Both the position numbers and the translations under genes were made by a program. DNA of 20,151 bases from Eubacteriales bacterium (GTDB lineage Bacteria > Bacillota_A > Clostridia > Lachnospirales > Lachnospiraceae): the NCBI GenBank assembly GCA_030533315.1, contig JAUNJL010000045.1, positions 1 through 20,151 of the forward strand. Reading direction: 5' to 3'. Positions 3,522 to 17,883 of this stretch are shown here, piece by piece (the stretch's first letter is position 1; every line of letters begins with the position of its first letter). Under the pieces are notes generated by a model that ran no database searches, was not told the DNA's origin, and saw nothing but the letters and a program-made list of their open reading frames with translations.

Positions 3522-5202
3522 CCATGCCTTTAAGCGGACGGTAAGGCAGCCGCTGACAACGGAGACAAGGAGGGACGGCGGGGAAGGTCCGGAGGTGCCG
3601 GACGGCCTTCTGAAAAAATGCAACGTCTGTAAATCAGCGGTGTTTGTGGAGGACGTGAAGGAGAATGACTACATCTGTCCCCATTGCCGCAATTATTTCC
3701 GGGTTCACGCCTATCGCCGGATCCAGAGGGTGGCGGATTCAGGCAGCTTCGAGGAGTGGGACATGGGTCTTCCCGTCTCGAATCCCCTCCATTACAAGGG
3801 CTACAGGGAAAAGGTGGAGGGGCTGAGGGAAAAGACCGGGCTGGATGAGGCCGTGGTGACGGGCAAGGCCATGATCCAGGGAAGCCCGGCTGTTCTAGGA
3901 GTCTGTGACAGCCGTTTTATGATGGCCAGCATGGGCCAGGTGGTCGGTGAAAAGATCACCAGGGCCGTGGAGCGGGCCACAAGAGAGCGGCTGCCGGTCA
4001 TCCTCTTTGCCTGCTCCGGGGGAGCCAGGATGCAGGAGGGAATCGTTTCCCTGATGCAGATGGCGAAGACGGCGGCGGCCCTAAAGCGCCACAGTGATGC
4101 GGGCCTTCTCTACGTGAGTGTCCTTACGAACCCCACCACCGGCGGAGTCACGGCCAGCTTTGCCATGCTGGGAGACATCATCCTGGCGGAGCCGGGGGCC
4201 CTGATCGGCTTTGCCGGGCCGAGAGTCATTGAACAGACCATCGGCCAGAAGCTGCCCAAGGGCTTCCAGAGATCCGAGTTCCTTTTGGAGCACGGCTTTA
4301 TTGACGGTATTGTGAAAAGGGAGGAGCTAAGGGATACCCTGTCCTTGCTCCTGCGGTTTCATGGGCCATATAAGGCCAGTCTTCCGGAGGGGGAGCCTGT
4401 GAGGGAAGAGGAGCTCAAAAGGATGGATGCCTGGGAGCGGGTCTGTCTTGCCAGGGATAAGGAGCGGCCGACGGGGAAAGATTATGTGGAGCTTCTTTTT
4501 CAGGACTTTACGGAGATGCATGGAGACCGCTGCTTTGGGGACGATCCTGCGGTGATGGGAGGGATCGCCTGGTTTCACGGTGTTCCCGTGACGGTTCTTG
4601 TCCAGGAAAAGGGGCAGGGAACGAAGGGGAGCATCGCCCATAACTTTGGCATGGTTTCCCCCGAAGGCTATCGAAAATCCCTGCGTCTGATGAAGCAGGC
4701 GGAAAAATTCGGCAGGCCTGTGCTCTGCTTTGTGGACACGCCAGGCGCCTTCTGCGGCTTGGAGGCGGAGGAGCGGGGACAGGGCGAGGCCATTGCCCGA
4801 AATCTGTACGAGCTGTCCGCTCTGAAGGTGCCGGTGCTCTCCCTGGTGATTGGGGAGGGCGGCAGCGGCGGCGCCCTGGCATTTGCCGTGGCGGACCAGG
4901 TTTGGATGATGGAGAATGCCATTTATTCCATCCTCTCCCCGGAGGGATTTGCCACCATCCTCTGGAAGGACAGCAAGCGGGCAAAGGAGGCGGCGGGAGT
5001 GATGAGACTCACCGCCAGAGACCTGAAAAGCCTGGGGATCGTGGAGAAGGTCATTGGGGAGGAGGAGCCTTTGACAAGAGAGAACATACAGGACAAAAGG
5101 GAAGTGCTGGATGGCGCCATTTCCGCCTTTTTGAGGGAGCATATGGGGCTGCCCGTCCAGGAGCTTCTGGAAAAACGATATGAGAGATTCCGGCGGATGT
5201 AA
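3511..5202 (+). CDS. accDA: Fused acetyl-CoA carboxylase carboxyltransferase beta-alpha subunit (AccD-AccA)
   Basis: This single 563-residue chain carries both carboxyltransferase halves, which move the carboxyl group from biotin to acetyl-CoA to give malonyl-CoA. Residues about 30-290 are AccD-like: a zinc ribbon with Cys37, Cys40, Cys56 and Cys59, then the crotonase-fold core with the SGGARMQEG motif. Residues about 300-563 are AccA-like, with the [10 protein letters not shown] region, the QEKG.GTK segment, VDTPGAFCG and [11 protein letters not shown]. coli makes these as two separate proteins; fused forms are known from clostridia. No frameshift or stop divides the halves, so the fusion is real. 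A GGAGG ribosome site at 3495-3499 lies eleven bases ahead of the ATG, inside the end of accC. Confidence 0.95.
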
Positions 5203-5727: not shown

Positions 5728-5784
5728 AAAATGTGGAGTGAGTGTGTCGGAAAAGTCAAAAGACGCTGGAAAGGAATGATCGTA

Positions 5785-6153
5785 ATGACAGTAAAAGAGT
5801 GTTATCAAATCATAGGCAACTATGCAGAAGCCTCGGCACGACTTGGGAATGATGACAGGATCCGGAAATATTTGGATAAATTCCGTAAAGACCAGAGCCT
5901 TAACCATATGTTTGAGGCGCTGGAGCAGCAGGACTATCGACAAGCCTTTGTGTGTATCCACAATCTGAAGGGCCTCTACCTCAATCTGGCCCTGTCCAGG
6001 GTGGGAGCCTCTGCGTCCGAGCTTTGTGAGGCTTTGCGAAATGGGAAGCCGGAGGTGGACATTACCCAGATGGTCGCCGCGGTAAAAAGAGACCATGAGC
6101 AGGCGGTGGAAGCCGTGGGACAACTGATGGAGGCGCAGCCGGGAGGGGTGTAA
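5785..6153 (+). CDS. Hpt (histidine phosphotransfer) domain protein
   Basis: This small stand-alone phosphotransfer protein of 122 residues is essentially one Hpt four-helix domain. The phosphorylatable histidine is His59 in the HNLKGLYLNL motif, matching the family pattern H-x-L-K-G. Hpt proteins relay phosphoryl groups between hybrid kinases and response regulators. The ATG at 5785 is preferred over the in-frame ATGs at 5731 and 5776 because AAAGGA at 5770-5775 is nine bases away, and because the sequence MTVKECY begins the conserved part. The gene ends five bases before the receiver/HD-GYP gene, which is the likely phosphorylation partner. No sensor kinase is nearby, so the input is unknown. 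Confidence 0.82.
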   Translation: MTVKECYQIIGNYAEASARLGNDDRIRKYLDKFRKDQSLNHMFEALEQQDYRQAFVCIHNLKGLYLNLALSRVGASASELCEALRNGKPEVDITQMVAAVKRDHEQAVEAVGQLMEAQPGGV

Positions 6154-6158
6154 TCTGC

Positions 6159-7244
6159 ATGAAGATACTGATCGTGGATGACATTGAATTAAACCGGGAT
6201 ATCCTTCGGGATATGCTGGAAGAGGAGGGCTGGGAGACCGTGGCGGCCTCGGACGGTGTACAGGCCCTGGAGATCCTGGATGGTCAGCATGATGCCCTCC
6301 AGGCTGTTTTGCTGGATCTGGTCATGCCCCGCATGGACGGTTTCCAGCTTTTGGAAGAAATGAAAAAGAGGAGCTGGTTCCCCAGTATCCCGGTGATCGT
6401 GATCAGCGGAGAAAATGAGCTTTCCACGGAGATACGATCCCTGGAGCTGGGGGCCCATGACTTTATCCATAAGCCGTTTGTGAGGAGCCTTGTGGTGCAG
6501 CGGGTAAAAAATGCCGTGCAGCTTTTTCTCCACAAAAATTCCCTTGAGCAGCTGGTCAGCCAGCAGACACAGGCCCTTCGTGAGCAGGCGGAGCAGATCA
6601 AGAGGAACAATGCCAAGATCATCGATATCCTGGGAACGGTGGTGGAGTACCGTAATCTGGAGAGCGGAGAGCACATCTCCCGGGTGAAGGGCTTTACCCA
6701 CATCATGGCGGAGAGCATGATGGAGCTTTTTCCAGAATACGGACTGACGGAGCAGATGGCCCAGCTGATCGCAGACGCCAGTCCCCTCCATGATCTGGGG
6801 AAGATCACCATACCGGACAACATCCTGTTGAAGCCGGGCAGGCTGACGCCGGAGGAGTTTGAGCTGATGAAGGCTCACACCTCCAACGGAGCCGAGATGA
6901 TCCAGCGCATTGAGGGAGCCTGGGACACAGAGTATGCGCGGATCTGCCAGGAGATCTGCCGCTATCATCATGAGAGAGACGACGGGCGGGGATATCCCGA
7001 TGGCTTGAAGGGAGAGGAGATCCCTGTTTCCGCCCAGCTGGTATCCGTGGCCGACGTGTATGACGCCCTGGTGAATAAACGGGTGTACAAGGAGGCGTAT
7101 GCGCTGGATGCCGCCTATGAGATGATCATCACCGGGCAGTGCGGAAATTTCTCGCCCAAGCTTCTGAAATGCTTTGAACACGCAAGGAAGCGGTTTGAGG
7201 AGCTGGCTTGTGAGAAGGTGCCCATGCTGAAAAAGATTTCCTGA
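6159..7244 (+). CDS. Response regulator with HD-GYP domain, predicted cyclic di-GMP phosphodiesterase
   Basis: The protein has 361 residues. Residues 1-120 form a receiver domain with the acidic pair Asp7/Asp8, phospho-acceptor Asp53, Ser83 and Lys105. A helical coiled linker (about 125-160) leads to an HD-GYP domain (about 160-355). The metal and signature residues are intact: His172 in GEHISRV, His211-Asp212 in HDLGK, His270-His271 and the DDGRGYPDGLKG signature at 274-285. RpfG-type proteins of this layout hydrolyse cyclic di-GMP, so an active phosphodiesterase is expected, controlled by phosphorylation. The gene follows the Hpt gene by five bases and converges on the MOSC gene. No DNA-binding output domain is present. 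Exact substrate and pathway are inferred. Confidence 0.92.
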   Translation: MKILIVDDIELNRDILRDMLEEEGWETVAASDGVQALEILDGQHDALQAVLLDLVMPRMDGFQLLEEMKKRSWFPSIPVIVISGENELSTEIRSLELGAHDFIHKPFVRSLVVQRVKNAVQLFLHKNSLEQLVSQQTQALREQAEQIKRNNAKIIDILGTVVEYRNLESGEHISRVKGFTHIMAESMMELFPEYGLTEQMAQLIADASPLHDLGKITIPDNILLKPGRLTPEEFELMKAHTSNGAEMIQRIEGAWDTEYARICQEICRYHHERDDGRGYPDGLKGEEIPVSAQLVSVADVYDALVNKRVYKEAYALDAAYEMIITGQCGNFSPKLLKCFEHARKRFEELACEKVPMLKKIS

Positions 7245-7323: not shown

Positions 7324-7776
7324 TTATGATACCCGGATCTTTTCGCCCAGCCGGATGGTTCCTCCTTCCAAAACCCTGACAAAGATCCCCTGTTCTCTCA
7401 GTCTGCACTCCTTCCCCTCTGCCGCCAGGGTGCAGACGTCGGGATGGCATTTTTTGAAGATTCCCGTGACCTCCAGGCGTATTTCTTCTGCCTGGAGGAT
7501 CTCTCCTTTTTTCATGTTTCGGAAATCCAGTCCCTCTATGCGGAAGTTTTCCTTGAATTTCTCAAAGCAGAGTCCTTTTTCTTCCTGCTCTTCCATCCAG
7601 GTACGGGCCTCCTGGGGCAAAAGGGAGAGCTGTCTCATTTCGTCCCCTCCGTGGAAGTCTCCTTCCATTCCGGTTTCCCTTGTGATCCGCACCTCTTTCC
7701 ATGTCTTTGGCATACTGCCCTTTTCTTTGTAGGAAAACAGGCCGGTAATCCGACCTGTTCTTGTTTTCTGATCCAT
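7324..7776 (-). CDS. MOSC-domain protein, pterin-cofactor associated
   Basis: This 150-residue protein is a single MOSC domain. The family includes the C-terminal part of molybdenum-cofactor sulfurases and small proteins that bind or modify the pterin cofactor. Visible features are the RITRETGMEGDFHGG segment (about 30-44), the KKCHPDVCTLA region with Cys110 and Cys115, and the closing GIFVRVLEGGTIRLGE (about 130-145). The ATG at 7776 follows AAAGGAG by five bases. It is the last gene of the tungsten-cofactor row, 69 bases after the moeA fusion gene. No partner enzyme of the xanthine-oxidase type is in the window, so a role with the AOR cofactor (storage, delivery or ligand exchange) is inference. 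Confidence 0.82.
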   Translation of the reverse strand: MDQKTRTGRITGLFSYKEKGSMPKTWKEVRITRETGMEGDFHGGDEMRQLSLLPQEARTWMEEQEEKGLCFEKFKENFRIEGLDFRNMKKGEILQAEEIRLEVTGIFKKCHPDVCTLAAEGKECRLREQGIFVRVLEGGTIRLGEKIRVS

Positions 7777-7845
7777 TGTTTCTCCTTTGACTGATGTGAA
7801 TAGCTGTTGGTTTCGCAGGTGAAGGTCTGTCCACGAGGCCGGTGG

Positions 7846-9759
7846 TCAGGTGTTGATCTCCACCAGTTCTCCCGTATGCTCCCAGGTGTAGCCGCCCAGC
7901 TCCCTCAGCTTCTCATGGAACGCTTCAGACTGCAAAAGCTTTAAGAACGCCTGCACGTGGGGCAGCTCCAGGCTCTCCTTGTAAAGGGCGAAATCGTATT
8001 CTTCCTTTCCAACGGGGATGAAATCCAGATCCATGGCTTTTGCGGCCGAGGCGATCCCCATGCCCACGTCGGCTCCTTCTCCTGCGACCTGGGCGGCCAC
8101 GGCCATGTGGGTGGCCGCTTCACAGCCGTATCCCTGGATCTCCTCCGGCAGGATGCCCTCCTTTTTCAGAAGGTAGTCCAGCAGAATCCTGGTTCCGGCT
8201 CCTCTCTGGCGGTTGACGAAACGGCCCTTTTTCAGGTCTGCGATTCCATGGATGTCCAGCGGATTTCCTTTTTTTACCATCAGTCCCTGGATCCGGCCCA
8301 CACCCTTTATGAGGACCACCGGCTCCCGGAACATTTTTTTCAGGTAGGTCTGGTTGTACACGCCGGATTCCTCGTCCAGGAGATGGATGGGCGCAATGTG
8401 GGTTTCCTTACGCTTCAGGGCCATCAGGCCGCCCATGCTTCCCACATGGGTGCTGGAGAGGTAGGCGCCTGGAAAGTGCTCGGTCATCAAATCTGACGCC
8501 ACGTCCAGGATCAGATCGTGGCTTCCCGTGATCATCACCGTGCTCTGCACCTCCTCCAGGGAGCGGTACAATTCCACATCCACCGTGTCGCCGGCTTCGG
8601 CCCCCTCGCTGTTCTGAGGAATGATGCAGAAGCCGTCTGCCCGGACCAGGGACATGGCGGCTCCGGCTCCCCTTGCAAGGGGGGCGGCAACCATTTTTTC
8701 TCCGACCTGTCCCACCTTTACCCGGACGTATTCTCTGTGCTTCAGGCTGGAGACGAGACGCCTGGAGATCACAGCCGGAACCATGGCGTTTTTGGAAACA
8801 GGGGCGCCTGTCAGCATGGCGAGCACCGGGGCTGCGAAGTTCTCAAAGGCGATATAGGCGCTGACCGGGTAGCCGGGAAGACCGATCACCGGCCGATTGT
8901 TGACCACGGCCAGGATCACCGGTTTTCCAGGCTTGATGGAAACGCCGTGGACGATCACCTCCCCCAGCTCCCGGAGGACGTGCACCGTATAATCCTCCGT
9001 CCCTGCGCTGGAGCCGGCATTGATGATCACCATGTCAAATTCTTCAGACGCTTTTCGGATGCTTTCCCGGATCTTTTCATAATCATCGGGGATGACGGGG
9101 AAACGGAGGGCCTGGCCGCCCTGTTCCTTCACAAGGCCTTCAAACATTCTGGAGTTGGATTCGATGATGCTGCCTTCCTGAGGCGTCTCTCCCGGCTCGA
9201 TGATCTCCGTGCCTGTGGGGAAGATTGCTACCCTGGGCTTTGCGGCCACCGAAATCTGGGTGATGCCGCCGGAGAGGAGAACTCCCACGTCTATGGGCCG
9301 GATCCGGTGGTGTCCTGGAAGGATCATCTCTCCTGCCACAATGTCCTCTCCCACCGGACGTACATGCTGCCAGGGTGCCGCCGCCTCCACGATCCGCACA
9401 CAGTCCTCATGCTCCGTCTCCAGGAGATCCTCTGCCATGATGACCGCGTCGTATGGAGGGTGCACGGGATCCCCCGTATCCACCACCAGATAATCCTCCC
9501 CTGCCTTCAGCTCCACGGGAGCCGTTTCCAGGGCACCTTCCGTCTTTTTGGAATCAACGGCGATCCCGTCCATGGCGGCCGCATTAAAAAGGGGAGAGCA
9601 GTATTTGGCATAAACGGCGGCCTTTGTCACCCTTCCCAGGGACTCTGCCACAGGTATGTCCTCCCACTTTTTTTCCAGAACAGGCAGAAGAGCCTTCTTG
9701 TAGCGGTCGAGGGCTTCCTCCACGGAGATCGTCTTCAGATACAGATTTCTTTTCCCCAT
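7846..9759 (-). CDS. moeA: MoeA fused to a periplasmic-binding-protein-like domain
   Basis: The 637-residue protein has two parts. Residues about 1-403 are a MoeA molybdotransferase: NAAAMDGIAV (59-68), PTGTEI (181-186), NAGSSAG (247-253), KPGKP (276-280) and GLPGYPVSA (293-301). Residues about 404-637 resemble the substrate-binding fold of LysR-type regulators and ModA-like proteins, without any helix-turn-helix and without a signal peptide. Such fusions are known in bacteria and archaea. MoeA inserts metal into adenylylated pterin; the extra domain may bind oxyanion or cofactor inside the cell. The ribosome site AAGGAGA precedes the ATG at 9759. A second MoeA is encoded just upstream, so the pair may divide metal specificity or steps. 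Confidence 0.93.
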   Translation of the reverse strand: MGKRNLYLKTISVEEALDRYKKALLPVLEKKWEDIPVAESLGRVTKAAVYAKYCSPLFNAAAMDGIAVDSKKTEGALETAPVELKAGEDYLVVDTGDPVHPPYDAVIMAEDLLETEHEDCVRIVEAAAPWQHVRPVGEDIVAGEMILPGHHRIRPIDVGVLLSGGITQISVAAKPRVAIFPTGTEIIEPGETPQEGSIIESNSRMFEGLVKEQGGQALRFPVIPDDYEKIRESIRKASEEFDMVIINAGSSAGTEDYTVHVLRELGEVIVHGVSIKPGKPVILAVVNNRPVIGLPGYPVSAYIAFENFAAPVLAMLTGAPVSKNAMVPAVISRRLVSSLKHREYVRVKVGQVGEKMVAAPLARGAGAAMSLVRADGFCIIPQNSEGAEAGDTVDVELYRSLEEVQSTVMITGSHDLILDVASDLMTEHFPGAYLSSTHVGSMGGLMALKRKETHIAPIHLLDEESGVYNQTYLKKMFREPVVLIKGVGRIQGLMVKKGNPLDIHGIADLKKGRFVNRQRGAGTRILLDYLLKKEGILPEEIQGYGCEAATHMAVAAQVAGEGADVGMGIASAAKAMDLDFIPVGKEEYDFALYKESLELPHVQAFLKLLQSEAFHEKLRELGGYTWEHTGELVEINT

Positions 9760-9799
9760 ATGATTTCTCCTTCTCGTCTTTTTGTTTTTGCTTGAGCCT

Positions 9800-9822
9800 G
9801 CACCCGTCCGTTTGCGGGGTGC
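9800..9822. repeat. Inverted repeat between the two moeA genes
   Basis: GCACCC at 9800-9805 and GGGTGC at 9817-9822 form a 6-bp stem in the 79-base gap between moeA and the moeA fusion gene. On the transcribed (minus) strand no T-run follows, so read-through is expected. A T-run exists only on the plus-strand side, where no gene is read. Function unknown. Confidence 0.3.
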
Positions 9823-9838
9823 GGCGGTTTTTCGGAGG

Positions 9839-11068
9839 CTAAAAAAGCTTTACGATCACAGGATCGCCCTTCTTTAAGCCCTCGCTGTCCAGCGGGATTT
9901 TCACATAGCCCTCGGACCCGGTCAGGGTACGCATCAGGCCAGACTTGCCCAGGACGGGCCTGGCCAGGAAACCCTCTTGGGCTTCGATCAGCTTTACCAT
10001 CAGGTAGGTTTCCTTTCCGGGGGCCGCCGGCACGTTGCTTTCCATGAGGGCGGGGATCCCCGGCCTCTCCTTTTGGCCGGTGCGGACTCTCTCCAGCCAT
10101 CCTCCCAAAAGGGAAAAGACTGTCAGGGCAGCTCCGGGATGGCCTGGAAGACCCAGGAGTACGGTTTCGGAAGCCTTGTCCACGGCTGCGATGGTGGGCT
10201 TTCCGGGCTTTATGGCCAATCCATGGGTGAGGACTCCAGGGGAGGAAAGCTCCGAAAACAGTCTTGCCGTCATGTCCTTTTTTCCCTGGGAGCTGCCTCC
10301 GGAGATGGCTACCAGGTCGCTTTGGGCCATAGCCTCCTTGATGGCCGTTCGCAGCTCCTCCTCCCGGTCAGGCAGGACGCGGGAGGCTATGGGAAGAAAT
10401 CCCAGCTCTTGGGCCATGGCCGTCAGGGAATAGGTGTTGATGTCAAAAATCTGTCCCGGTCCGGGAACTTCCTCCAAAGACCTCAGTTCATCCCCCGTGG
10501 ACAGAATGGTGATCCGCAGGGGGGCGTAAACCAGGACGGACGAGATCCCGTTCCCGGCAAGGGCGCCGATCTGAGCGGCCTGAAGAAGAGTTCCCGCTTC
10601 CAGGATCGTCTCACCGGCCTGCACATCCTCGCCGATCTGGACCACGTTTTTCCCTGGAGAGACGGACTGGTACACTGCAGCATCCTCTTCACCGAAGAGC
10701 TCGCAGTACTCCACCATGGCCATGGCGTCCGCCCCGGGGGGAAGCATTCCTCCTGTGGGGACATAGGCGCAGGTGCCGCTTTGGATTACGTGCTTTGCCT
10801 CCTGCCCCATCTCCACATCGCCCAGGATGCGGAGGAACACCGGAAGGCTCTCGCTGGCTCCCTGTGTGTCGGAGGCCTTCACCGCATATCCGTCCACCGT
10901 GGAGCGTACAAATCCAGGAAGGGGTTCCTTTGCCAGGATATCCTCCCCCAGGATCCTTCCTCTGGCCTCGGTCAGGGGGATCCTTTCTTTTTTTCCAAAA
11001 TCCCAGGTTATCTCTCTTAAAAGCTTTTCTCTGGCCTGGTCCAGGCTGTCTACCTTCAGCAGCTTCAT
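9839..11068 (-). CDS. moeA: Molybdopterin molybdotransferase / tungstotransferase MoeA
   Basis: MoeA uses adenylylated pterin and molybdate or tungstate to form the metal cofactor. The 409-residue protein has normal family length. Motifs in order are STVDGYAV (56-63), the PTGGMLPPGAD region (104-114), STGDEL (190-195), SGGSSQGKKD (256-265), KPGKPT (287-292) and GLPGHPGAA (306-314), then a C-terminal beta-barrel ending in DPVIVKLF. The frame is open further upstream, but ATG 11068 is chosen because AGGAGAG lies about eight bases away and the upstream residues do not look conserved. Given its position after tupABC and upstream of a second moeA in an AOR locus, it may act with tungsten; this is inference. 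Confidence 0.93.
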   Translation of the reverse strand: MKLLKVDSLDQAREKLLREITWDFGKKERIPLTEARGRILGEDILAKEPLPGFVRSTVDGYAVKASDTQGASESLPVFLRILGDVEMGQEAKHVIQSGTCAYVPTGGMLPPGADAMAMVEYCELFGEEDAAVYQSVSPGKNVVQIGEDVQAGETILEAGTLLQAAQIGALAGNGISSVLVYAPLRITILSTGDELRSLEEVPGPGQIFDINTYSLTAMAQELGFLPIASRVLPDREEELRTAIKEAMAQSDLVAISGGSSQGKKDMTARLFSELSSPGVLTHGLAIKPGKPTIAAVDKASETVLLGLPGHPGAALTVFSLLGGWLERVRTGQKERPGIPALMESNVPAAPGKETYLMVKLIEAQEGFLARPVLGKSGLMRTLTGSEGYVKIPLDSEGLKKGDPVIVKLF

Positions 11069-11208
11069 AATATATTCTCTCCTGTTTCTTTTTTGATGAT
11101 CCCCAACAGCGGGGCCTTTCTTTGGGCCCATGCACATGGGAAAAAGGCTCCCGGTACAGGGCGGAGGGATCGTGCACGGCCGTTTCCTTCCGGCAGGTGC
11201 GGGCCGGC
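11069..11208 (-). other. Gap between tupC and moeA with two short palindromes
   Basis: This 140-base non-coding stretch separates the transporter genes from moeA. It contains CCCATG/CATGGG (11127-11132 and 11135-11140) and GGGCC/GGCCC (11112-11116 and 11125-11129), which overlap and cannot both form. The moeA ribosome site is at 11077-11083. I see no convincing promoter or terminator, so co-transcription with tupC is likely. Confidence 0.3.
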
Positions 11209-11913
11209 TTACGGACGTCCGCTGCTGGGATCCTTCAGGACCATCTCACCTGCCAGGAAATCCCGCACCTCCGGCACCGAAGAGTGAAATAGAACCTCCC
11301 TGGTTTCGCCGCTTTCCAGAAGCCGTCCTTTCTGAAAAACGTGGACCCTCTGGCATATCCGGAGGATCAGGGACATTCTGTGGCTGATGAGGATCCAGGT
11401 GTTTTTTTCTTTGTGCCACATGTCCAGGATCCGCTCCTCAAAAAATTTCATGCTGTCGGGATCCAGGTTGGACAGGGTTTCATCCACCATGATCAGCTTT
11501 GGGTGAAAGCACATGGCCCGAAGCATGGACAGCTTCTGTCTCTCTCCGCTGGAAAGGCCTCTGGCGTACTGATCCGCCTTATTCTCCAGGCCGCAGGAGG
11601 CCAGAAGCCGGTACATTTCTTCACGGTTCGGTTTTTGCTTTCGGAGCTTTAGGGGATAGATCAGGTTTTGGTATACGGTATCATGGAGCAGATAGGGCCT
11701 TTGGGGGGCCAGGGTAATGTCCTCCGGCTTCAGGCCTCCATAATCGATGGTTCCCTGATCCGGTTTTTGGATTCCCATGATCAGCTTGGCCAAGGTGGTC
11801 TTTCCGCTTCCATTGCTGCCGATAAAGCCATGGATGCAGCCCTCTTCCAATTCCAGGTCTTTGATCCTCAGGGTAAAATTCCCTACCTTTTTTTCCAAAT
11901 CAGTAATTCTCAT
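11209..11913 (-). CDS. tupC: Tungstate ABC transporter ATP-binding protein (TupC)
   Basis: This is the ATPase subunit that powers oxyanion import. The 234-residue protein has Walker A GSNGSGKT (32-39), a Q-loop at Gln71 (APQRPYLL), signature LSSGE (120-124), Walker B IMVDE ending at Glu145, a D-loop (SNLD) and switch His178. It lacks the C-terminal molybdate-binding (TOBE/MOP) domain of ModC, which fits TupC. ATG 11913 is selected over an upstream ATG at 11946 because AAAGGA lies in front of it and the conserved sequence starts there. The start overlaps the tupB end by fourteen bases, indicating coupled translation with its permease. Confidence 0.9.
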   Translation of the reverse strand: MRITDLEKKVGNFTLRIKDLELEEGCIHGFIGSNGSGKTTLAKLIMGIQKPDQGTIDYGGLKPEDITLAPQRPYLLHDTVYQNLIYPLKLRKQKPNREEMYRLLASCGLENKADQYARGLSSGERQKLSMLRAMCFHPKLIMVDETLSNLDPDSMKFFEERILDMWHKEKNTWILISHRMSLILRICQRVHVFQKGRLLESGETREVLFHSSVPEVRDFLAGEMVLKDPSSGRP

Positions 11914-12586
11914 CGGCACCGGATTCCTTTCTGAAAAAGTCGGCAAGGCACTGCAGAATAAAGGCCATGGCCAGAAGGAGGAGGCCCAGGGTCATACCCT
12001 CCGTGAAGATCCCCTGGCTTTTCAGCAGGGAGATGGCCGTGGTCATGGTCCTGGTGTGCCCTTTGATATTGCCGCCCACCAGCATGACGGCGCCCACCTC
12101 GCTGATGGACCGTCCGAATCCCGTCACAACGGCGAAATAGATTTCGTGCTTCATCTCCCGAAGAAGGAGAAGCTGTGTCTGAAGCTGTCCCGCTCCCATG
12201 GTTTTTGCGAACACGCGGATGGCCGGGGCGGCTCCCGAGGCATAGGTATAGATCATGCCACAGATAATGGGGGTAATGATGATGGTTTGTGCCAGGACCA
12301 TTCCCTTCACCGTAAAAAGAAGGTTCAGGGATCCAAGAGGCCCTCTTCTCATGGTCAGCATGTACACAAAAAGTCCCACCACCACCGGAGGGACTCCCAT
12401 GAGCGTTCGGTTTATGCGGACCACGATCCTTTTGCCGGGAAAAGAAAATCGTTCCAGGGCCAGCCCCAGAAGGATCCCCAGCAGAGAGGAGAGCAGCGTG
12501 GAAGTGAACGCCATTCGGATGGTAACCCGAATGGCGTCGCTGACACCCACATCAGAAAATAGTTTGTTAAACAATGTTTCCAGCAT
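11900..12586 (-). CDS. tupB: Tungstate ABC transporter permease (TupB)
   Basis: This inner-membrane permease has 228 residues and about five or six hydrophobic segments. Examples are around 25-45, 60-82 and 93-115, with a last one near 197-218. The cytoplasmic loop carrying GFGRSISEVGAVMLVGGNI (about 156-174) matches the ATPase-contact (EAA) loop of molybdate/tungstate permeases. It sits between the binding protein and ATPase genes, 23 bases after tupA and overlapping tupC. Permease sequences alone do not separate tungstate from molybdate; the assignment rests mainly on the TupA-type binding protein. Confidence 0.91.
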   Translation of the reverse strand: MLETLFNKLFSDVGVSDAIRVTIRMAFTSTLLSSLLGILLGLALERFSFPGKRIVVRINRTLMGVPPVVVGLFVYMLTMRRGPLGSLNLLFTVKGMVLAQTIIITPIICGMIYTYASGAAPAIRVFAKTMGAGQLQTQLLLLREMKHEIYFAVVTGFGRSISEVGAVMLVGGNIKGHTRTMTTAISLLKSQGIFTEGMTLGLLLLAMAFILQCLADFFRKESGADENY

Positions 12587-12609
12587 GGATCCACTCCCGT
12601 CAGCCTGGC

Positions 12610-13467
12610 TTATGCTTCTTTGTCGTCTGCGTTTGGAACAAACAGAGCCTGGCCATAATCCTCCACGCCAAACTCGCCGATCAGCTCCTGCACATCCTCT
12701 GAGCAGATCCAGGTGATGAACTCATTTGCGGCCTCGTTGTTGACCTCTGGATATTTCTCTGGATTCACGGCGATCACACCATACTGGTTCAGCAGGTTCT
12801 TGTCGCCCTCACAAACAACCTCCAGCTCCAGGGCAACGTCGGCGTCCTTTTTCATTTTCAGGAAGGTTCCTCTGTCGGTGAGGCAGTAGGCTTCTTTTTC
12901 GTCTGCCATCGTCAAAGTGGCGCCCATGCCCTGCCCGGATTCCTGGTAATTGGGGTTGGTGGTAGGATCCAGCTCCAGAGCGGCCCAGATCTTCTTTTCC
13001 TTCTTGTCTGTACCGGAGTCGTCTCCTCTGGAGATAAAGGGAAGCTCCTCCTCCAGAATGGTTCCGAATACCTGGTTGATGTCCTCAGAGTGCTGGATGG
13101 GCTCTGCGGGACCTGCCACCACGAAATCATTGTACATTACCGGGAAACGCTCAACGCCGAAGCCATTTTCCACAAACTCCTCTTCGCTGGCCTTTGCGTG
13201 CACCAGGACGATGTCCACGTCTCCGTTTTCGCCCATCTTCAGGGCTTCTCCCGTGCCTACTGCATCCCACAGGAGCTCATATCCGGTATCCTCCAGGAAA
13301 ATGGGGGCCAGATAGTCCAGAAGGCCCGTGTCAGCGGTGCTGGTGGTGGTGGCCATCATCAGGTGTCCCTTACTTTCGGCTTCCTCTGCCATGACTGGAA
13401 TGCAGCTCATCACAAGGCTTGCGGCCACCGCCGTTCCCAGTCCCAGTCTGATCGTGTTTTTTCTCAT
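12610..13467 (-). CDS. tupA: Tungstate-binding protein of ABC transporter (TupA)
   Basis: This extracytoplasmic binding protein of 285 residues has an N-terminal signal sequence: positive MRKNTIR, then a hydrophobic stretch to about residue 27. Two processing sites are possible: signal peptidase I after VMA (27), or lipoprotein processing at Cys22. The latter would tether it to the membrane as expected in a Gram-positive, though the lipobox VMSC is imperfect. The TupA hallmarks are clear: TTTS at 40-43, VGTGEAL (70-76), SRGDDSGT (146-153) and TDRGT (197-201). TupA proteins bind tungstate with very high selectivity over molybdate. A strong AAGGAGG site precedes the ATG, which itself follows a long structured leader. 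Confidence 0.93.
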   Translation of the reverse strand: MRKNTIRLGLGTAVAASLVMSCIPVMAEEAESKGHLMMATTTSTADTGLLDYLAPIFLEDTGYELLWDAVGTGEALKMGENGDVDIVLVHAKASEEEFVENGFGVERFPVMYNDFVVAGPAEPIQHSEDINQVFGTILEEELPFISRGDDSGTDKKEKKIWAALELDPTTNPNYQESGQGMGATLTMADEKEAYCLTDRGTFLKMKKDADVALELEVVCEGDKNLLNQYGVIAVNPEKYPEVNNEAANEFITWICSEDVQELIGEFGVEDYGQALFVPNADDKEA

Positions 13468-13680
13468 TTTAGTGTCCTCCTTTTTGTGCTTGTGTATTTA
13501 TTCCTGCGGGCGGCGGGCCGGTTGGTCATGCTTGCGCAGATATCAGGCGGCGGCCGCAGGAGTCAAAAACCCCTGGTACGCTTCGGCGCCTGCAGGCTGG
13601 ATATTCCGCTGCCTGCAAAAAGGGGTTTTTGATTGAAACAGGCAGCGGCTCCTTGGAGGGGGGCAGCCCTGTATTCAATC
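13468..13680 (-). promoter_or_regulatory. Structured leader upstream of tupA with alternative hairpins (candidate attenuator or riboswitch)
   Basis: The gap between moaA and tupA is dense in inverted repeats, read on the minus strand. (a) GATTGAA/TTCAATC (13674-13680 with 13631-13637), extended by ACAGG/CCTGT (13668-13672 with 13638-13642). (b) CCGCTGCCTG/CAGGCAGCGG (13639-13648 with 13606-13615), a perfect 10-bp pair that excludes (a). (c) TCAAAAACCCCT/AGGGGTTTTTGA (13621-13632 with 13563-13574), a perfect 12-bp pair ending in a T-run like a terminator. (d) CCTGCGG/CCGCAGG (13554-13560 with 13503-13509), enclosing a GCAA-tetraloop hairpin at 13529-13538. The mutually exclusive pairings and terminator-like arm suggest conditional termination before tupA. 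Ligand and class are unknown. Confidence 0.5.
13563..13632 (-). terminator. Terminator-like inverted repeat in the moaA-tupA gap
   Basis: Perfect 12-bp arms (13563-13574 and 13621-13632) bring together A5-C4 and G4-T5 tracts, so the minus-strand RNA would end its stem in a run of five U. The 46-base interior contains further small hairpins, including one closed by a CGAA/TTCG-type loop. The long interior is unusual for a simple terminator and fits an attenuator. The element is nearly symmetric, so it could also work in the opposite direction. Confidence 0.45.
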
Positions 13681-13739
13681 CTTTGCTTTTACTATTTTGT
13701 CTTCCGTTTTTTCTCTTTCCTATTGCGGCGCACAGGCTG

Positions 13740-14714
13740 TCAGCCGCCGATCTGTGACATGATCTTCTGCTCCACGTTTGTCCCATCCTCCTGGAAGAAG
13801 GCATGGCACTCCGGCTTGTGCGCCAGGGTTTCTTTTATGAGGTCCTTGATGTCTTCCTTGGAGGCTCCCTGCCGCAGCGCACCTCTTAAGTCCTTTCCTG
13901 TTTCGTACTGCAGGCAGGCTTTTAAATATCCCTGAGCCGTCAGACGCACCCGGTTGCAGGAGCTGCAGAATTTATGGCTTACGGCGCTGATAAACCCGAT
14001 TTTTCCCAGAAAGCCTGGGAAAGAGTAGTAATGTGCCGGGCCGTTCCCAAGGAGCTGGGAGCACACCTGCTCCTGTCCATACTTTTCCCTGAGCTGCCTT
14101 AGCAGCTCATCCTCGTTCATACCGGAAAAGGTTTTTCCAAGGCCGATGGGCATCATCTCTATAAAGCGTACATGAACAGGATGCTTCCGGGAGAGCTCTG
14201 CAAGCTGGCAAAGCTCCTGGAGGCTTTGGTCCATGAGCACACAATTCACCTTCAGGGGGATGTCCTTGTATTCCAAGGCCTTCTGGAAGCCTTCATAAGC
14301 CTTCTGAAAGGCATCTCTTCTCGTGATCTGCTGGTACCGCTCTTCATTCAGGGTATCCAGGCTGAGATTGATACCGTTGATCCCGGCCTTTGCCAGATCG
14401 TCCATCTGCTCCCCCAAAAGCACGCCGTTGGTGGTCAGGGTTACCTGACTGATGCCGGGAAGCTCCTTTAATTCCTTTACAAGGGCTGAAAGATTCCTTC
14501 TTACAAGGGGCTCTCCCCCCGTTAGCTTGATCTTCTGGACTCCCAGCTCGGCCATAGCCTCGGCGATCTGCATGATCTCGTGATACCGCAGGATCTCATC
14601 GTGGGCGGCCATGGGGACTCCCTCCTCCGGCATACAGTACCTGCACCGCAGATTGCAGCGGTCCGTCACAGAAATCCGAAGGTAATCGATCTTCCTCCCT
14701 ATTTTGTCAATCAT
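13740..14714 (-). CDS. moaA: GTP 3',8-cyclase (MoaA), radical SAM enzyme of pterin cofactor synthesis
   Basis: MoaA starts molybdenum/tungsten cofactor synthesis by converting GTP to 3',8-cyclo-7,8-dihydro-GTP. The 324-residue protein has normal length. The radical SAM cluster motif is Cys20, Cys24 and Cys27 (DRCNLRCRYC). The second, substrate-binding cluster uses Cys250, Cys253 and Cys267 (KFCSSCNRVRL and LKACL). The essential C-terminal Gly-Gly is present at 323-324. The GGEP motif is at 66-69. The ATG is preceded by CGGAG nine bases away. Its partner MoaC is not in the window and must be encoded elsewhere if the pathway is complete. Upstream lies a 138-base structured leader. Confidence 0.96.
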   Translation of the reverse strand: MIDKIGRKIDYLRISVTDRCNLRCRYCMPEEGVPMAAHDEILRYHEIMQIAEAMAELGVQKIKLTGGEPLVRRNLSALVKELKELPGISQVTLTTNGVLLGEQMDDLAKAGINGINLSLDTLNEERYQQITRRDAFQKAYEGFQKALEYKDIPLKVNCVLMDQSLQELCQLAELSRKHPVHVRFIEMMPIGLGKTFSGMNEDELLRQLREKYGQEQVCSQLLGNGPAHYYSFPGFLGKIGFISAVSHKFCSSCNRVRLTAQGYLKACLQYETGKDLRGALRQGASKEDIKDLIKETLAHKPECHAFFQEDGTNVEQKIMSQIGG

Positions 14715-14852
14715 AAGTCAACACTCCGTATTTTCAAATTTGTAATCGTCCAGGCACCTGAGCGGGCGCCTGGTCCCCGCAGCCTCATCCGGGGGCGGGA
14801 AAGCATCCCCATCCCCGGACGCCGGAGCCAGGAGGTGTGTCCCACCTTGCTC
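14715..14852 (-). promoter_or_regulatory. Three-hairpin leader upstream of moaA (candidate cis-regulatory RNA)
   Basis: Read on the minus strand, the gap after the moeB-like gene holds three successive hairpins. AGGTG/CACCT is at 14843-14847 with 14833-14837. TCCGGGG/CCCCGGA is at 14813-14819 with 14788-14794, and contains an inner GGGA/TCCC stem. CCAGGC/GCCTGG is at 14768-14773 with 14750-14755. An unpaired AT-rich stretch then leads to the moaA ribosome site. moaA leaders are a known home of the Moco riboswitch family, but I could not align this sequence to that consensus by eye. No promoter is evident, so it would act within the operon mRNA. Confidence 0.42.
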
Positions 14853-15569
14853 TCATGTCCTGGAAAGGCTTCCATGAATGGGGCAGGAAGGGCTTTTTTC
14901 CACTGGCAGGCAGTCGAAGCTTCCGTCCAGTCCGTCGTAGGTAAGCAGCCGTCCGTACAGAGGCTTTCCAGCCCCGGTCAAAAGCTTGATGCATTCCACC
15001 GCCTGGAGGCTGCCGATCACTCCTGCCACGGCGCCTAGGGAGGGGATCGGGGCATCCTTTTCCTCTGCTTGGCTGCCAAGGCATTCCATGCAGGGCGTAT
15101 CCTTCCCGATGGTCATCACATACCCATAAAAGCCATGGATGCCTCCCTCCACCAAAGGAATCCCCAGATCCTGGCAGGCTCTGTTGAGGCACCGCCTGGT
15201 GTGCTGGTTGTCCACGCAGGCGACCACGGCCTGAACGTCTCCGATCAGCTGACGGACACTGTTCTCGTCTATGGTGGCTGTGATCCCTTCTATTTCCTCC
15301 TCAGGGTGGGCGGCGGCCAGGCGCTCCTGGGCGCACAAAGCCTTCGATCTTCCCAGATCTGCCACACCGTAGAGGATCTGTCTGTTTAAATTGGAGGGGG
15401 CTACCGTATCATTGTCGATGATACGGATATGTCCCACTCCTCCGTAGGATAGGTAAAGGGCAGCAGGGCCTCCCAGGCCGCCGGCCCCGATGACGGCGAC
15501 CCTTCCCTTTTTCAGCTTCAGCTGGCCCTCCTCCCCGATCTGGGGAATGAGCTTCTGTCTGCTGTACAT
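14853..15569 (-). CDS. moeB: MoeB/ThiF-family adenylyltransferase activating MoaD
   Basis: This E1-like enzyme adenylates the C-terminal glycine of a ubiquitin-like sulfur carrier. The 238-residue protein has the nucleotide loop GAGGLGG (28-34), NLNRQ with Arg63, and catalytic Asp120 in ACVDN. Zinc ligands Cys160 and Cys163 (CMEC) are present. The second zinc half is CPIH (Cys229, His232) where CxxC is usual, an odd ligand set. The gene starts three bases after moaD, and its ribosome site GGGAGGTGG lies inside the moaD end, so the pair is translationally coupled. MoeB, ThiF and HesA are hard to separate by sequence; the neighbourhood makes MoaD the obvious substrate. Confidence 0.87.
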   Translation of the reverse strand: MYSRQKLIPQIGEEGQLKLKKGRVAVIGAGGLGGPAALYLSYGGVGHIRIIDNDTVAPSNLNRQILYGVADLGRSKALCAQERLAAAHPEEEIEGITATIDENSVRQLIGDVQAVVACVDNQHTRRCLNRACQDLGIPLVEGGIHGFYGYVMTIGKDTPCMECLGSQAEEKDAPIPSLGAVAGVIGSLQAVECIKLLTGAGKPLYGRLLTYDGLDGSFDCLPVEKSPSCPIHGSLSRT

Positions 15570-15572
15570 GTC

Positions 15573-15794
15573 TCACCCACCTCCCACCGGCGGGAACAGG
15601 GCCAGGACGTCCTGATCTTTCAGGGCAGCGTCCAAGGGTGCATGTCTGCCGTTGATCAGGCAGATGGCGACCTCCTCCCGGGGGATCCCGTAAAAATCCA
15701 CCGCCTCACCGGCTGTGGACACCGTTTCCGGTTCTAAGTAGCTGATCTTCTCCCTTCCCTCACGAAAGGTGGCGAACAACCGTATCTCTATCAT
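15573..15794 (-). CDS. moaD: MoaD-type ubiquitin-like sulfur carrier (molybdopterin synthase small subunit)
   Basis: This 73-residue beta-grasp protein ends in FPPVGGG, the Gly-Gly tail that is adenylated and thiocarboxylated. It donates sulfur to form the dithiolene of the pterin. The reading frame extends further upstream, but ATG 15794 is chosen because AGGAGGTG lies seven bases before it and MIEIRLFATFREG is the typical MoaD beginning. ThiS-like carriers look similar; the company of moaA, moeB and moeA favours MoaD. The large synthase subunit MoaE is not in the window. A terminator-like hairpin lies between this gene and the AOR gene upstream. Confidence 0.87.
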   Translation of the reverse strand: MIEIRLFATFREGREKISYLEPETVSTAGEAVDFYGIPREEVAICLINGRHAPLDAALKDQDVLALFPPVGGG

Positions 15795-15838
15795 GGAAGA
15801 CACCTCCTGAAAATGATACCTAAAACAATGTGATATAG

Positions 15839-15866
15839 AAAAGGGGGTCGTTGTACACAGACCCCC
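15839..15866 (-). terminator. Rho-independent terminator candidate after the AOR gene
   Basis: On the minus strand a 7-bp stem, GGGGGTC (15860-15866) with GACCCCC (15843-15849) and a 10-base loop, is followed by TTTT (15839-15842). The T-run is short, so termination is probably partial. That would let a fraction of transcripts continue into moaD and downstream genes while giving more AOR message. I found no strong promoter between it and moaD. Confidence 0.55.
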
Positions 15867-15904
15867 CACATGTCTATAATCTTTTATTTTTTAGAAATGA
15901 ATGG

Positions 15905-17710
15905 TTACTCTTTCTCTTCCAGTCCCAACCTGTCCAAGGTCTCCTTGGTGGGGAAAGCATCGACCCATCCCCGAGCCTCATAATACTGGGGCAGGGTGAT
16001 CTTGATCTGGTTTACCATTCCCTTAGAAGGACCATTCTTGATGGGCTCATCCGTCAGTCTCTTGGGAAGCCTGTCATCCTCCGGCTTCATACCTGCAGCC
16101 TTGTTGAACAGACGCTCAATGTTGTAAATACGCTCGCCCACCTCCAGAAGGCTCTCTGGCGTATGCTCTGTTCCTGTGGCTGCGTTCAAGAGCTTCGCAT
16201 ACTGAGGTGCTCCCAGTGCGAAGGAGGAGAAGAGGCAAAGCCCCATGGAGTCGATCACGGCTGTCAGATCCTGGAAGATCTTGCACCACTGGGCTTTTCC
16301 GTCCGTGACGGTACGATCCAGCTGCTCCGGAAGACCCAAAACCTCCGGTGAGATCAGATAGCCTCTTACGTGGCATCCGCCCCGGTTGCTGGTGGCATAG
16401 GTGATGCCGATACCCTGGATGCCTCTGGCATCATAGGCAGGCATCTCCTGCTTCTTCACACTCATGGAAACCTCTGGATGTCCGTAGTGTTCGCACAGAC
16501 GATAGGAGCCGTCTGCCATCAGCCTTGCAAGAGGACTGCTTCCCTCGCCCATGCGCTTCGTCCACTCCACGATGGCATCCGCATTGCCCCAGGTCAGAGG
16601 CACACCGTCGCACTCCTCCTCCTTGATGGCTCCCAGCTGGTACAGCTCCATGGCAGCCGCAACGGTACAGGGGGTGGAGATGGCATCCAAACCATATTCA
16701 TTGCACAGCATATTTGCTTTGTCAATGGCGTTCAGGTCATTGATCCCGCAGTTTCCGCCGTATGCCCAGAGGGGCTCGTACTCCGGTCCGCCTACAACCT
16801 TCCCGTCGATATCCACCACTCGGCCGCAGCCGATGGGGCATCTGTGGCAGGCTGAATTTTTCACAAGGTATTTGTCCTTCAGGGTCTCGCCGGAGGTATC
16901 GTCTGCCTTCTCATAGTAAGACTCCTGCCAGTTCCTGGTGGGGAAGGAGCCTGTGTTGTTGATGATATTTACCAGGACCGCCGTGCCGTAGGTGGGAAGC
17001 CCTCCTCCTGTGACTCCGTTCTCCCGGATCAGCTTGTTGCACTCCCTTGAGGCCTCCTTCAGTGCGTCGGCATCGAAGGGAGGGATCACCTTCCGGGAGG
17101 CCGTCACGGTGATGGCCTTCAGGTTCTTGGAGCCCATGACGGCTCCGACGCCGCTTCGGCCGGCTGCCCGATCCTTGTCGTTCATGATGGCTGCTAAGAG
17201 GGAGAGATGCTCTCCCGCCGGGCCGATGTTCAGAACGGAGCACTGGGGATGTGCCTTTTTCAGGGCGTCATCCACCTCCTCGCTCTTCATTCCAAGGTAG
17301 GGAGCGGCATCCAAAAGCTGGATCTTCTCGTCCTCCACGTTGATGTACACGGGCTTCTCGGACTTTCCTTCCACGATGAGGGCGTCCCAGCCGGCATACT
17401 TCAGCTTGCCGCCCCATTTGCCGCCGGAGTTGGAGCTGGCGATCATGCCTGTAAGCGGTGATTTTGTCACGACCATGTACCGGCCCGCCGTGGGTGATGC
17501 AGTACCAGTCATGGGTCCCGTAAGGTAGATCAGCTTGTTTTCCGGTGACAGAGGATCCACCTTTGCGATCCCTTCGTCATAAAGCATTTTCGTTCCAAGT
17601 CCCCGCCCGCCGATAAATTTCTTGGCCAGCTCAAAATCCAGATCCTCCACGCGGATCTCACCGGTGGTCAGGTTGATGCGCGCCATTTTTCCATTGTAAG
17701 ATGTCGTCAT
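15905..17710 (-). CDS. aor: Tungsten-dependent aldehyde:ferredoxin oxidoreductase family enzyme
   Basis: AOR-family enzymes oxidise aldehydes to acids (or the reverse) using a tungsten bis-pterin and a 4Fe-4S cluster. The 601-residue protein is full length. Cluster ligands appear as Cys288, Cys291 and Cys295 (ACHRCPIGC) with the fourth at Cys492 in the DSMGLC motif. This matches the Pyrococcus AOR pattern. A pterin-binding segment DRAAGRSGVGAVMGSKNLKA is at 180-199. Likely active-site residues are Glu310/Glu312 in GPEYEP and His447 in RGGCHVRG. ATG 17710 follows GGGAGG by seven bases. No ferredoxin-like partner gene is adjacent, so the electron carrier is unknown. Exact substrate cannot be told; AOR, FOR and WOR subtypes remain open. 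Confidence 0.94.
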   Translation of the reverse strand: MTTSYNGKMARINLTTGEIRVEDLDFELAKKFIGGRGLGTKMLYDEGIAKVDPLSPENKLIYLTGPMTGTASPTAGRYMVVTKSPLTGMIASSNSGGKWGGKLKYAGWDALIVEGKSEKPVYINVEDEKIQLLDAAPYLGMKSEEVDDALKKAHPQCSVLNIGPAGEHLSLLAAIMNDKDRAAGRSGVGAVMGSKNLKAITVTASRKVIPPFDADALKEASRECNKLIRENGVTGGGLPTYGTAVLVNIINNTGSFPTRNWQESYYEKADDTSGETLKDKYLVKNSACHRCPIGCGRVVDIDGKVVGGPEYEPLWAYGGNCGINDLNAIDKANMLCNEYGLDAISTPCTVAAAMELYQLGAIKEEECDGVPLTWGNADAIVEWTKRMGEGSSPLARLMADGSYRLCEHYGHPEVSMSVKKQEMPAYDARGIQGIGITYATSNRGGCHVRGYLISPEVLGLPEQLDRTVTDGKAQWCKIFQDLTAVIDSMGLCLFSSFALGAPQYAKLLNAATGTEHTPESLLEVGERIYNIERLFNKAAGMKPEDDRLPKRLTDEPIKNGPSKGMVNQIKITLPQYYEARGWVDAFPTKETLDRLGLEEKE

Positions 17711-17848
17711 ATAAATACCTCCCTTGCAAAGTACACGATGCTTCTGATGCTAATCCTTTCCAAACACGGGAGGCATTGATTCAAGCGGTCAACACCCTCG
17801 CCGGGGAAACCCCGGCTGGTCCTGCTTCCTCTTTACAGGACTCGGATT
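17711..17848 (-). promoter_or_regulatory. Structured 5' leader of the AOR mRNA (candidate cofactor- or metal-sensing RNA)
   Basis: Between the predicted start of transcription and the AOR ATG lie about 138 bases that fold into a multibranched form on the minus strand. AATCC/GGATT closes it (17844-17848 with 17752-17756). Inside are GTCCTG/CAGGAC (17836-17841 with 17819-17824), GCCGGGG/CCCCGGC with a three-base loop (17810-17816 with 17800-17806), and a GAGG..TTGA/TCAA..CCTC arm (17770-17799). The sequence CCTCCC at 17768-17773 is exactly complementary to the ribosome site GGGAGG at 17718-17723. It also overlaps the last arm, so the two pairings compete. This is a plausible translational switch. 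Assignment to the Moco/Wco riboswitch class is not established. Confidence 0.5.
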
Positions 17849-17854
17849 GTGTAG

Positions 17855-17883
17855 ATTATACAATATTCTTTCTCGTTTTTCAA
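17855..17883 (-). promoter_or_regulatory. Strong sigma-A promoter of the AOR / tungsten locus
   Basis: On the minus strand TTGAAA (17878-17883) and a perfect TATAAT (17855-17860) are separated by exactly 17 bases in a very AT-rich segment. This is the clearest promoter in the window. Transcription should start near 17848-17850. It separates the AOR locus from the nth gene that ends at 17964. Confidence 0.8.

Follow-up and report, generated by a model that had tools for sequence, protein, structure and literature searches.

A predicted tungsten aldehyde:ferredoxin oxidoreductase cassette and its P3-bearing cofactor riboswitch in a Lachnospiraceae bacterium

Introduction

Class I tungsten-containing oxidoreductases (WORs) have been described beside worX and thiF, and one of them, CsWOR87 of Cetobacterium somerae (clade 87; WOR clade numbers follow this source), oxidises furfural (PMC13328260). 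Here we describe a locus headed by an aldehyde:ferredoxin oxidoreductase (AOR) gene in a 20,151-nucleotide (nt) stretch from an Eubacteriales bacterium of the Lachnospiraceae (contig JAUNJL010000045.1, positions 1 to 20,151; the whole stretch is called the window), and a riboswitch of the RF01055 family in front of that gene. Similar loci are already in print (PMC13328260; PMC6147048). Like the window enzyme, CsWOR87 is a single large AOR subunit whose gene lies next to a ThiS-like worX and thiF. The C. somerae genome also has TupABC, likened to that of the window by description, upstream of another WOR operon; in the window, by contrast, the genes for Tup, MoaA, both MoeA proteins and MOSC follow the AOR gene without interruption, and a riboswitch precedes them all (PMC13328260). 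In Dielma fastidiosa JC13 and Clostridiales VE202-08, AOR, MOSC and almost all genes for the molybdenum cofactor (Moco) are clustered or operonic. MoaA, MoaC, MoeA, MoeB and MogA are named there as detected and MoaE is left unnamed. These loci, which we compared by description, are presented in the text available as a molybdenum trait, with no riboswitch or tungsten reading (PMC6147048).

The published targets of the RF01055 family are genes of Moco and tungsten cofactor (Tuco) metabolism (PMC2408646). In the work of Regulski 2008, RNAs with the stem P3 occurred exclusively with molybdopterin (MPT) and Moco genes, and P3-less RNAs with Tuco metabolism (PMC2408646). As far as that work goes, the discrimination of Moco from Tuco by one RNA fold rests on this correlation.

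The AOR and its gene cassette

The ten genes from AOR through MOSC (7324-17710; Table 1) are consecutive on the minus strand, and each of the ten proteins matched its family above the Pfam gathering score, bearing out the gene run of a preliminary description of this DNA. MoaA and the fused MoeA protein (MoeA-PBP) also passed NCBIfam cut-offs (TIGR02666 and PRK14498). The AOR matched AFOR_N with 259.8 bits and AFOR_C with 480.5 bits over its full length. Its best Protein Data Bank (PDB) chains, both aligned end to end, were the Clostridium autoethanogenum AOR 9G7J (725 bits) and 1AOR (667 bits), which we take to be the P. furiosus enzyme. Positions C288, C291, C295 and C492, E312, H447, D342 and the DSMGLC motif at 487-492 match 1AOR; these are presumably the four cluster cysteines, the two pterin motifs (D342, D487) and the second-shell Glu and His. 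The cluster and pterin residues are common to the window AOR and both chains, and the intact motifs claimed earlier are present, with Asn337 taking the place of the leading Asp in the first pterin motif, as in 9G7J. The iron-bridge residue of PfAOR, Glu332, is Lys331 in the window AOR. As a tentative pointer to AOR sensu stricto (clade 87), and by score only, the protein stands closer to PfAOR (667 bits) and AaAOR (585) than to WOR83 (426), FOR (316), WOR5 (210) and BamB (181). No adjacent gene for a WorS, WorN or WorABC subunit was found among the 20 window proteins scanned.

TupABC is a predicted tungstate transporter. The sole NCBIfam match of the binding protein was the TupA equivalog, and its PDB matches were 5my5 (240 bits), a chain named only as an ABC-transporter binding protein, and 3lr1 (190 bits), a chain named as a periplasmic tungstate-binding protein. 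The TupA-type transporter of the preliminary description thus stands as far as the families of binding protein, permease and ATPase go, and falls short of the equivalog cut-offs given below. The translation start of TupC is probably an ATG near 11913, and that of the WorX/MoaD-like gene is most likely the ATG at 15794 rather than the GTG at 15869.

Where E. coli MoeA has Ser303 (GNPVS), MoeA1 of the window carries Ala (GHPGA) and MoeA-PBP carries Ser (GYPVS). The tungsten-inserting MoeA1 of Methylorubrum extorquens also has Ala at the equivalent place, and its moeA1-mobB-tupBCA cluster for tungsten-enzyme maturation resembles the window in having MoeA near Tup; that cluster serves a formate dehydrogenase with MobB and FdhD, and its Arg291 is Lys in the window (PMC13197769). 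The Ala in MoeA1 is only suggestive as a pointer to tungsten. In related loci, MoeA-PBP has Ser at this place in six of seven. The Ala/Ser pattern is reversed in L015 (Erysipelotrichaceae; L, G and C numbers are our labels for loci, genomes and contigs), with GNPVS in the stand-alone MoeA and GYPVA in MoeA-PBP.

The protein called MoeB-like in the preliminary description belongs to the ThiF family by Pfam. It missed the cut-off of every MoeB model (216.4, 201.3 and 168.7 bits against 449, 266 and 376.55), and we call it ThiF/MoeB-like only. MoaC, MoaE and MogA were not found among the 20 window proteins scanned, which hence do not include a complete MPT synthase (MoaD plus MoaE). In 41 related AOR-bearing genomes (G001-G041), MoaC was found in 40 and MoaE scored above its cut-off in 13, which leaves 28 with no cut-off match for MoaE. 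Mere genome incompleteness is an unlikely cause of the missing MoaE, given that MoaC turned up in all but one of these genomes. A different route to the dithiolene may involve WorX and ThiF. Acetogens without MoaE are already in print (PMC5039349).

Conservation of the cassette in relatives

All ten gene types lie close together in L001, L193, L215 and L216 (79-84% AOR identity). In three of these, L001, L215 and L216 (83-84%, one genus), the genes AOR-WorX-ThiF-TupA-TupB-TupC-MoeA1-MoeA2-MOSC stand in the same order as in the window; moaA is at the far end on the opposite strand, whereas in the window it lies between thiF and tupA. In L193 (79%), AOR-WorX-ThiF is placed behind the Tup-MoeA-MOSC block. 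The same placement occurs in L003 (80%), which has nine types and lacks moaA. L194 (75%) keeps most types, with TupA, TupB and ThiF absent from the stretch examined. The preliminary description had named loss of synteny in relatives as evidence against the cassette; for the near relatives this objection does not hold, as four loci keep ten types and two (75% and 80%) keep most.

Among the 20 loci with the most identical AOR (L001-L020), WorX was present in 20, ThiF in 16, MoeA1 in 14, TupA in 9, MoaA in 8 and MOSC in 8. At least five of eight partner genes were kept in 11 of these 20 loci and in 16 of all 80 AOR loci. These are minimum counts because many stretches end at contig ends. In distant AOR loci the gene set is mostly not kept.

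Homologues of the window AOR (E <= 1e-100) were found in 9 of the 397 genomes sampled from the family of G001, and in 5 of 17 genomes of its genus. Upstream, the AOR cassette is flanked by genes for endonuclease III (nth) and a MATE transporter, and nth was found in 0 of 80 loci. This sparse distribution and the differing flank would fit a cassette that moves or is often lost. A plasmid origin of the window was considered and rejected, as no near-identity match appeared in the plasmid collection searched. An AOR of this kind is rare in the family, to which the cassette adds a clear Lachnospiraceae-like case of predicted tungsten use.

The moaA genes of L001 (19049-20020), L215 and L216 share only 45-47% identity with that of the window; for TupA the identity is 80-81%.

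Proposed function

We consider it very probable that the locus is a cassette making one tungsten AOR, a Class I WOR. Such a tungsten-AOR biogenesis cassette is supported by the sequence comparisons, since relatives keep the genes clustered and the best PDB matches of the AOR are themselves AOR chains. Several findings weigh against this reading. TupA (279 of 400 bits), TupB (132 of 320) and TupC (92 of 400) all lie under the NCBIfam equivalog cut-offs. The PGKP motif of the window MoeA1 retains the Mo-type Lys, at a position occupied by Arg in M. extorquens MoeA1, and the Ser303 place in the stand-alone MoeA of 25 related AOR loci is divided into 12 Ala and 13 Ser (L010, listed twice, was counted once). 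Most of the 80 AOR loci do not retain the cassette, and many of the 80 are distant or cut by a contig end. The visible flank is 7 kb on one side and 2 kb on the other, and the 20 window proteins scanned included no ferredoxin, no alcohol dehydrogenase and nothing else that hints at a substrate. Also, the P3 stem described below would predict Moco over Tuco sensing under the published correlation (PMC2408646).

We infer the steps of the pathway, together with the metal, the substrate, the catalytic direction, the riboswitch ligand and the direction of regulation. TupABC would import tungstate, and MoaA, with MoaC from elsewhere, would make the pyranopterin precursor. The ThiF/MoeB-like enzyme would charge the C-terminal glycine of the WorX/MoaD-like protein with sulfur for the dithiolene, and MoeA1, perhaps with MoeA-PBP, would insert tungsten. 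The resulting W-bispterin cofactor would go into the AOR, whose most likely role is to oxidise aldehydes, toxic or dietary, with ferredoxin as the electron acceptor. The riboswitch in the AOR leader would sense the cofactor and adjust AOR translation, a terminator-like hairpin after the AOR gene would partly uncouple it from the cofactor genes, and the cofactor genes would probably also serve molybdenum enzymes.

The enzyme could instead work in the direction of acid reduction, using reduced ferredoxin to turn acids into aldehydes as a redox sink. Its closest solved relative, 9G7J, is the AOR of C. autoethanogenum, an enzyme that a review connects with the reduction of acetate by electrons from CO (PMC12096430). 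Against this, neither alcohol dehydrogenase nor CO dehydrogenase was found among the 20 window proteins scanned, and the four characterised Class I enzymes are described as acting in aldehyde oxidation (PMC13328260). We give acid reduction a modest chance and prefer aldehyde oxidation.

A P3-bearing riboswitch before the AOR gene

The preliminary description did not contain the RF01055 riboswitch, which is placed 26 nt upstream of the AOR gene. The 121-nt RNA folds into P1, P2, P3, P4 and P5 (z score -1.9; 6 of 200 shuffles fold equally well). Two conserved segments of published Moco and Tuco RNAs, GCCUCCC and GGAAAGGA, are also present in the window aptamer (PMC2408646). Compared with the AOR leaders of L001, L003, L193 and L194, the window has one 17-nt insertion that is exactly the P3 hairpin; in all five, P2 and P4 are short and the GNRA loop is absent. 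When the E. coli moaA RNA was aligned to RF01055, its P3 fell at the same place as that of the window. The window RNA differs from the published Moco RNAs in having P3 although its first gene is AOR, and in the loss of the GNRA loop and the long P2 (PMC2408646). With a 7-bp P3 it does not fit the P3-less, Tuco-type description, and MPT-synthesis genes follow only beyond the terminator-like hairpin.

The 41 related genomes gave 68 RF01055 matches in 28 genomes. Eleven of these RNAs lie at most 700 nt upstream of AOR and 18 at most 700 nt upstream of tupA, and P3 was seen in 0 of these 29. P3 was seen in 15 of the 39 RNAs that precede neither gene (L114-L116, L118, L123, L129, L130, L145, L146, L151, L160, L162, L165, L174 and L177). 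In an enlarged set, P3 was absent from all 25 RNAs that precede AOR in relatives and from all 20 that precede tupA. Two of the 25 score under the gathering threshold (L194, 35.8 bits; L195, 32.2 bits). RF01055 gave no match at gathering in the AOR leaders of L004-L007, and none at E 0.1 in that of L201. In this set, only the window has P3 in an RNA directly preceding AOR, and our literature search did not find such an arrangement in print. The census agrees with the published P3 correlation, to which the window is an exception unless its RNA is assigned to the cofactor genes that lie beyond the AOR (PMC2408646).

P3 was called by eye from folds, alignments and sequences, and 17 of the 68 RNAs were left out of the folding pass. 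An automatic rule agreed with the eye reading in 64 of 68 and called P3 in 14. It missed L160, which misfolded and was counted by eye, and left L152, L154, L155 and the added L211 undecided; its P3 call in L193 was wrong, as the P4 strand was misfolded there and cmscan and the alignment show no P3. The counts are not independent events, since several loci are close kin and three of the tupA RNAs form one array in G041. That array (Syntrophomonas, C4:183438-183913) consists of three tandem P3-less Moco RNAs (L135, L141 and L181) upstream of tupA, and resembles the triple Moco RNA array of S. wolfei described in 2008 (PMC2408646).

One explanation of the P3 stem is that the riboswitch senses Moco rather than Tuco, in which case molybdenum status would control a tungsten enzyme, or the AOR would take molybdenum. 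The 7-bp stem at the P3 position, the exclusive occurrence of published P3 RNAs with MPT and Moco genes (PMC2408646) and the distribution of P3 in our census all point in this direction. However, the rest of the aptamer, with its short P2 and no P4 GNRA loop, resembles the P3-less AOR RNAs of the nearest relatives, and therefore the insertion of a single hairpin may well leave the ligand unchanged. Under the published rule, P3 may also precede MPT-synthesis genes, which are here downstream of the AOR. When P3 was deleted in the E. coli RNA, regulation was disrupted, and the authors presume that the deletion is not enough to switch the ligand (PMC2408646). TupABC in the same cassette likewise speaks against Moco sensing, which we consider unlikely. 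Slightly less likely still is a gain of P3 by a Tuco-type aptamer in the AOR leader, leading it to sense Moco or both metals. If this were true, molybdenum status would control tungsten-enzyme manufacture in a cell that uses both metals. The window leader and its P3-less near relatives form a natural matched pair for whether P3 decides the metal.

Two other origins of these elements were rejected. The only other near match to the P3 hairpin in the window, with one mismatch, lies inside the fabF coding sequence (872-888, plus strand) and is probably due to chance, and none of 216 loci held an exact copy, which does not favour a repeat. The exact 21-base pattern searched for the riboswitch was not found on any virus contig.

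Possible control of AOR expression

The promoter-like sequence upstream of the AOR leader ends at the edge of the aptamer, and therefore transcription would start at P1; the region has seven promoter-like sites against 4.5 +/- 2.0 in shuffles, which is no excess. A terminator scan called no terminator-like site between the aptamer and the AOR gene, so control of the AOR is probably translational. The unconstrained fold of the leader, in which the Shine-Dalgarno sequence pairs with the aptamer GCCUCCC, has an energy of -54.0 kcal/mol, compared to -46.9 kcal/mol with the aptamer enforced. With this pairing, ligand binding would turn AOR on. A ligand-ON switch would be sensible for a cofactor user, and we offer it as a weak guess, since any Shine-Dalgarno sequence resembles the complement of CCUCC. 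Among leaders up to 116 nt, 8 of 12 in front of AOR (counting the window) and 3 of 11 in front of tupA had over half of the Shine-Dalgarno sequence paired with the aptamer; three more tupA leaders (L137, L164 and L167) were not scored. The pairing was absent from the minimum-energy folds of the nearest relatives L001, L197 and L198. An ON-switch conserved in AOR leaders was rejected because of this inconsistency.

The terminator-like hairpin in the AOR-WorX gap was missed by the terminator scan, which has a loop limit of 8. By eye, such a hairpin was found, with a different sequence, in three of six relatives (L194, L215 and L216). Its position between the AOR and the cofactor genes makes a single co-regulated operon doubtful, and the AOR may mostly have its own transcript.

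Probable sharing of the cofactor genes with molybdenum enzymes

The preliminary description inferred that all the genes serve a single AOR client. Comparison with relatives does not support this claim, as their genomes mostly carry ModA and a xanthine dehydrogenase (XDH)-type molybdoenzyme: when 15 related AOR-bearing genomes were searched for the two, ModA was found in 13 and an XDH-type enzyme in 14. Among seven searched genomes of the G001 family with at least 75% AOR identity, six carry both and G451 carries neither. In the 41-genome set, an XDH-type match over the cut-off was found in 28 and PF00384, whose matches include proteins without bound molybdenum, in 25; exactly one AFOR_C match was found in 14. 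In G001 (contig C3), ModA (103043) is 4.1 kb upstream of the AOR (107864), and an XDH-type hydroxylase (91014) and MoaC (87979) are about 16 and 20 kb upstream. By gene content, relatives with ModA and XDH-type genes would handle both metals. A self-contained set with one client is not supported and is unlikely to be general.

We therefore lean towards a shared molybdenum/tungsten cofactor locus, in which MoaA, WorX, ThiF, MoeA and MOSC would also supply pyranopterin to molybdenum hydroxylases. The ModA, XDH-type and PF00384 counts and the G001 neighbourhood speak for it, as does the difference between the two window MoeA proteins at the metal-site residue. Against it stands G451, whose cassette (84% AOR identity) was found with no ModA or XDH, in a genome that may be incomplete. 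This sharing is compatible with a tungsten-AOR cassette and contradicts only the single-client claim.

Several PF00384 matches in G028, G030, G031, G040 and other genomes contain a single in-frame TGA, as formate dehydrogenases with selenocysteine would.

Table 1. Features of the AOR locus in the window (positions in the window; all on the minus strand)
Feature	Position	Strand	Basis
AOR / WorL, aldehyde:ferredoxin oxidoreductase, 601 aa	15905-17710	-	Pfam AFOR_N/AFOR_C, PDB chain match
WorX-type MoaD/ThiS-like sulfur carrier, 73 aa, C-terminal GGG	15573-15794	-	Pfam ThiS
ThiF/MoeB-like adenylyltransferase, 238 aa	14853-15569	-	Pfam ThiF
MoaA, GTP 3',8-cyclase, 324 aa	13740-14714	-	radical-SAM/Mob_synth_C; TIGR02666 352.8 bits, cut-off 284
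TupA tungstate-binding protein (predicted), 285 aa	12610-13467	-	Pfam PBP_like_2, NCBIfam, PDB match
TupB permease, 228 aa	11900-12586	-	Pfam BPD_transp_1
TupC ATPase, 245-aa frame	11209-11946	-	Pfam ABC_tran
MoeA1, 432 aa	9839-11137	-	Pfam MoeA, three domains
MoeA fused to PBP_like domain (MoeA-PBP), 637 aa	7846-9759	-	Pfam MoeA and PBP_like; PRK14498
MOSC protein, 150 aa	7324-7776	-	Pfam MOSC
Moco/Tuco riboswitch aptamer RF01055	17737-17857	-	38.7 bits, gathering 36, full model 1-135
P3 stem GCCGGGG-UUU-CCCCGGC, 7 G-C pairs	17800-17816	-	clean 17-nt insert in alignment
Promoter-like TTGAAA-17-TATAAT	17855-17883	-	11 of 12 consensus matches
AOR Shine-Dalgarno GGGAGG	17718-17723	-	sequence; paired with aptamer in unconstrained fold
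Conserved aptamer GCCUCCC, complementary to AOR Shine-Dalgarno	17768-17774	-	minimum-energy fold pairs it with 17718-17723
Terminator-like hairpin GGGGGGTC..GACCCCC + TTTT, AOR/WorX gap	15839-15867	-	61-nt stretch -21.2 kcal/mol, z -3.1

Neighbouring genes and other elements

A long inverted repeat with outer arms CAAAAACCCCU and AGGGGUUUUUG lies in the moaA-tupA gap (13563-13631, minus strand). The fold of 13545-13690 gives a z score of -2.4, and this region had no Rfam match at gathering score.

The flanks of the cassette are of other kinds, with genes for fatty-acid synthesis on the plus strand. The genes for an Hpt-domain protein and an HD-domain response regulator lie side by side at 5731-7244 (plus strand), convergent with the MOSC gene. 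At 3511-5202 (plus strand), the beta and alpha subunits of acetyl-CoA carboxylase are fused into one protein of 563 aa (AccDA). Among the matches listed, at least 120 relatives are of like length with both domains, and the closest named relative is from Blautia glucerasea (76%), with other Lachnospiraceae also named.

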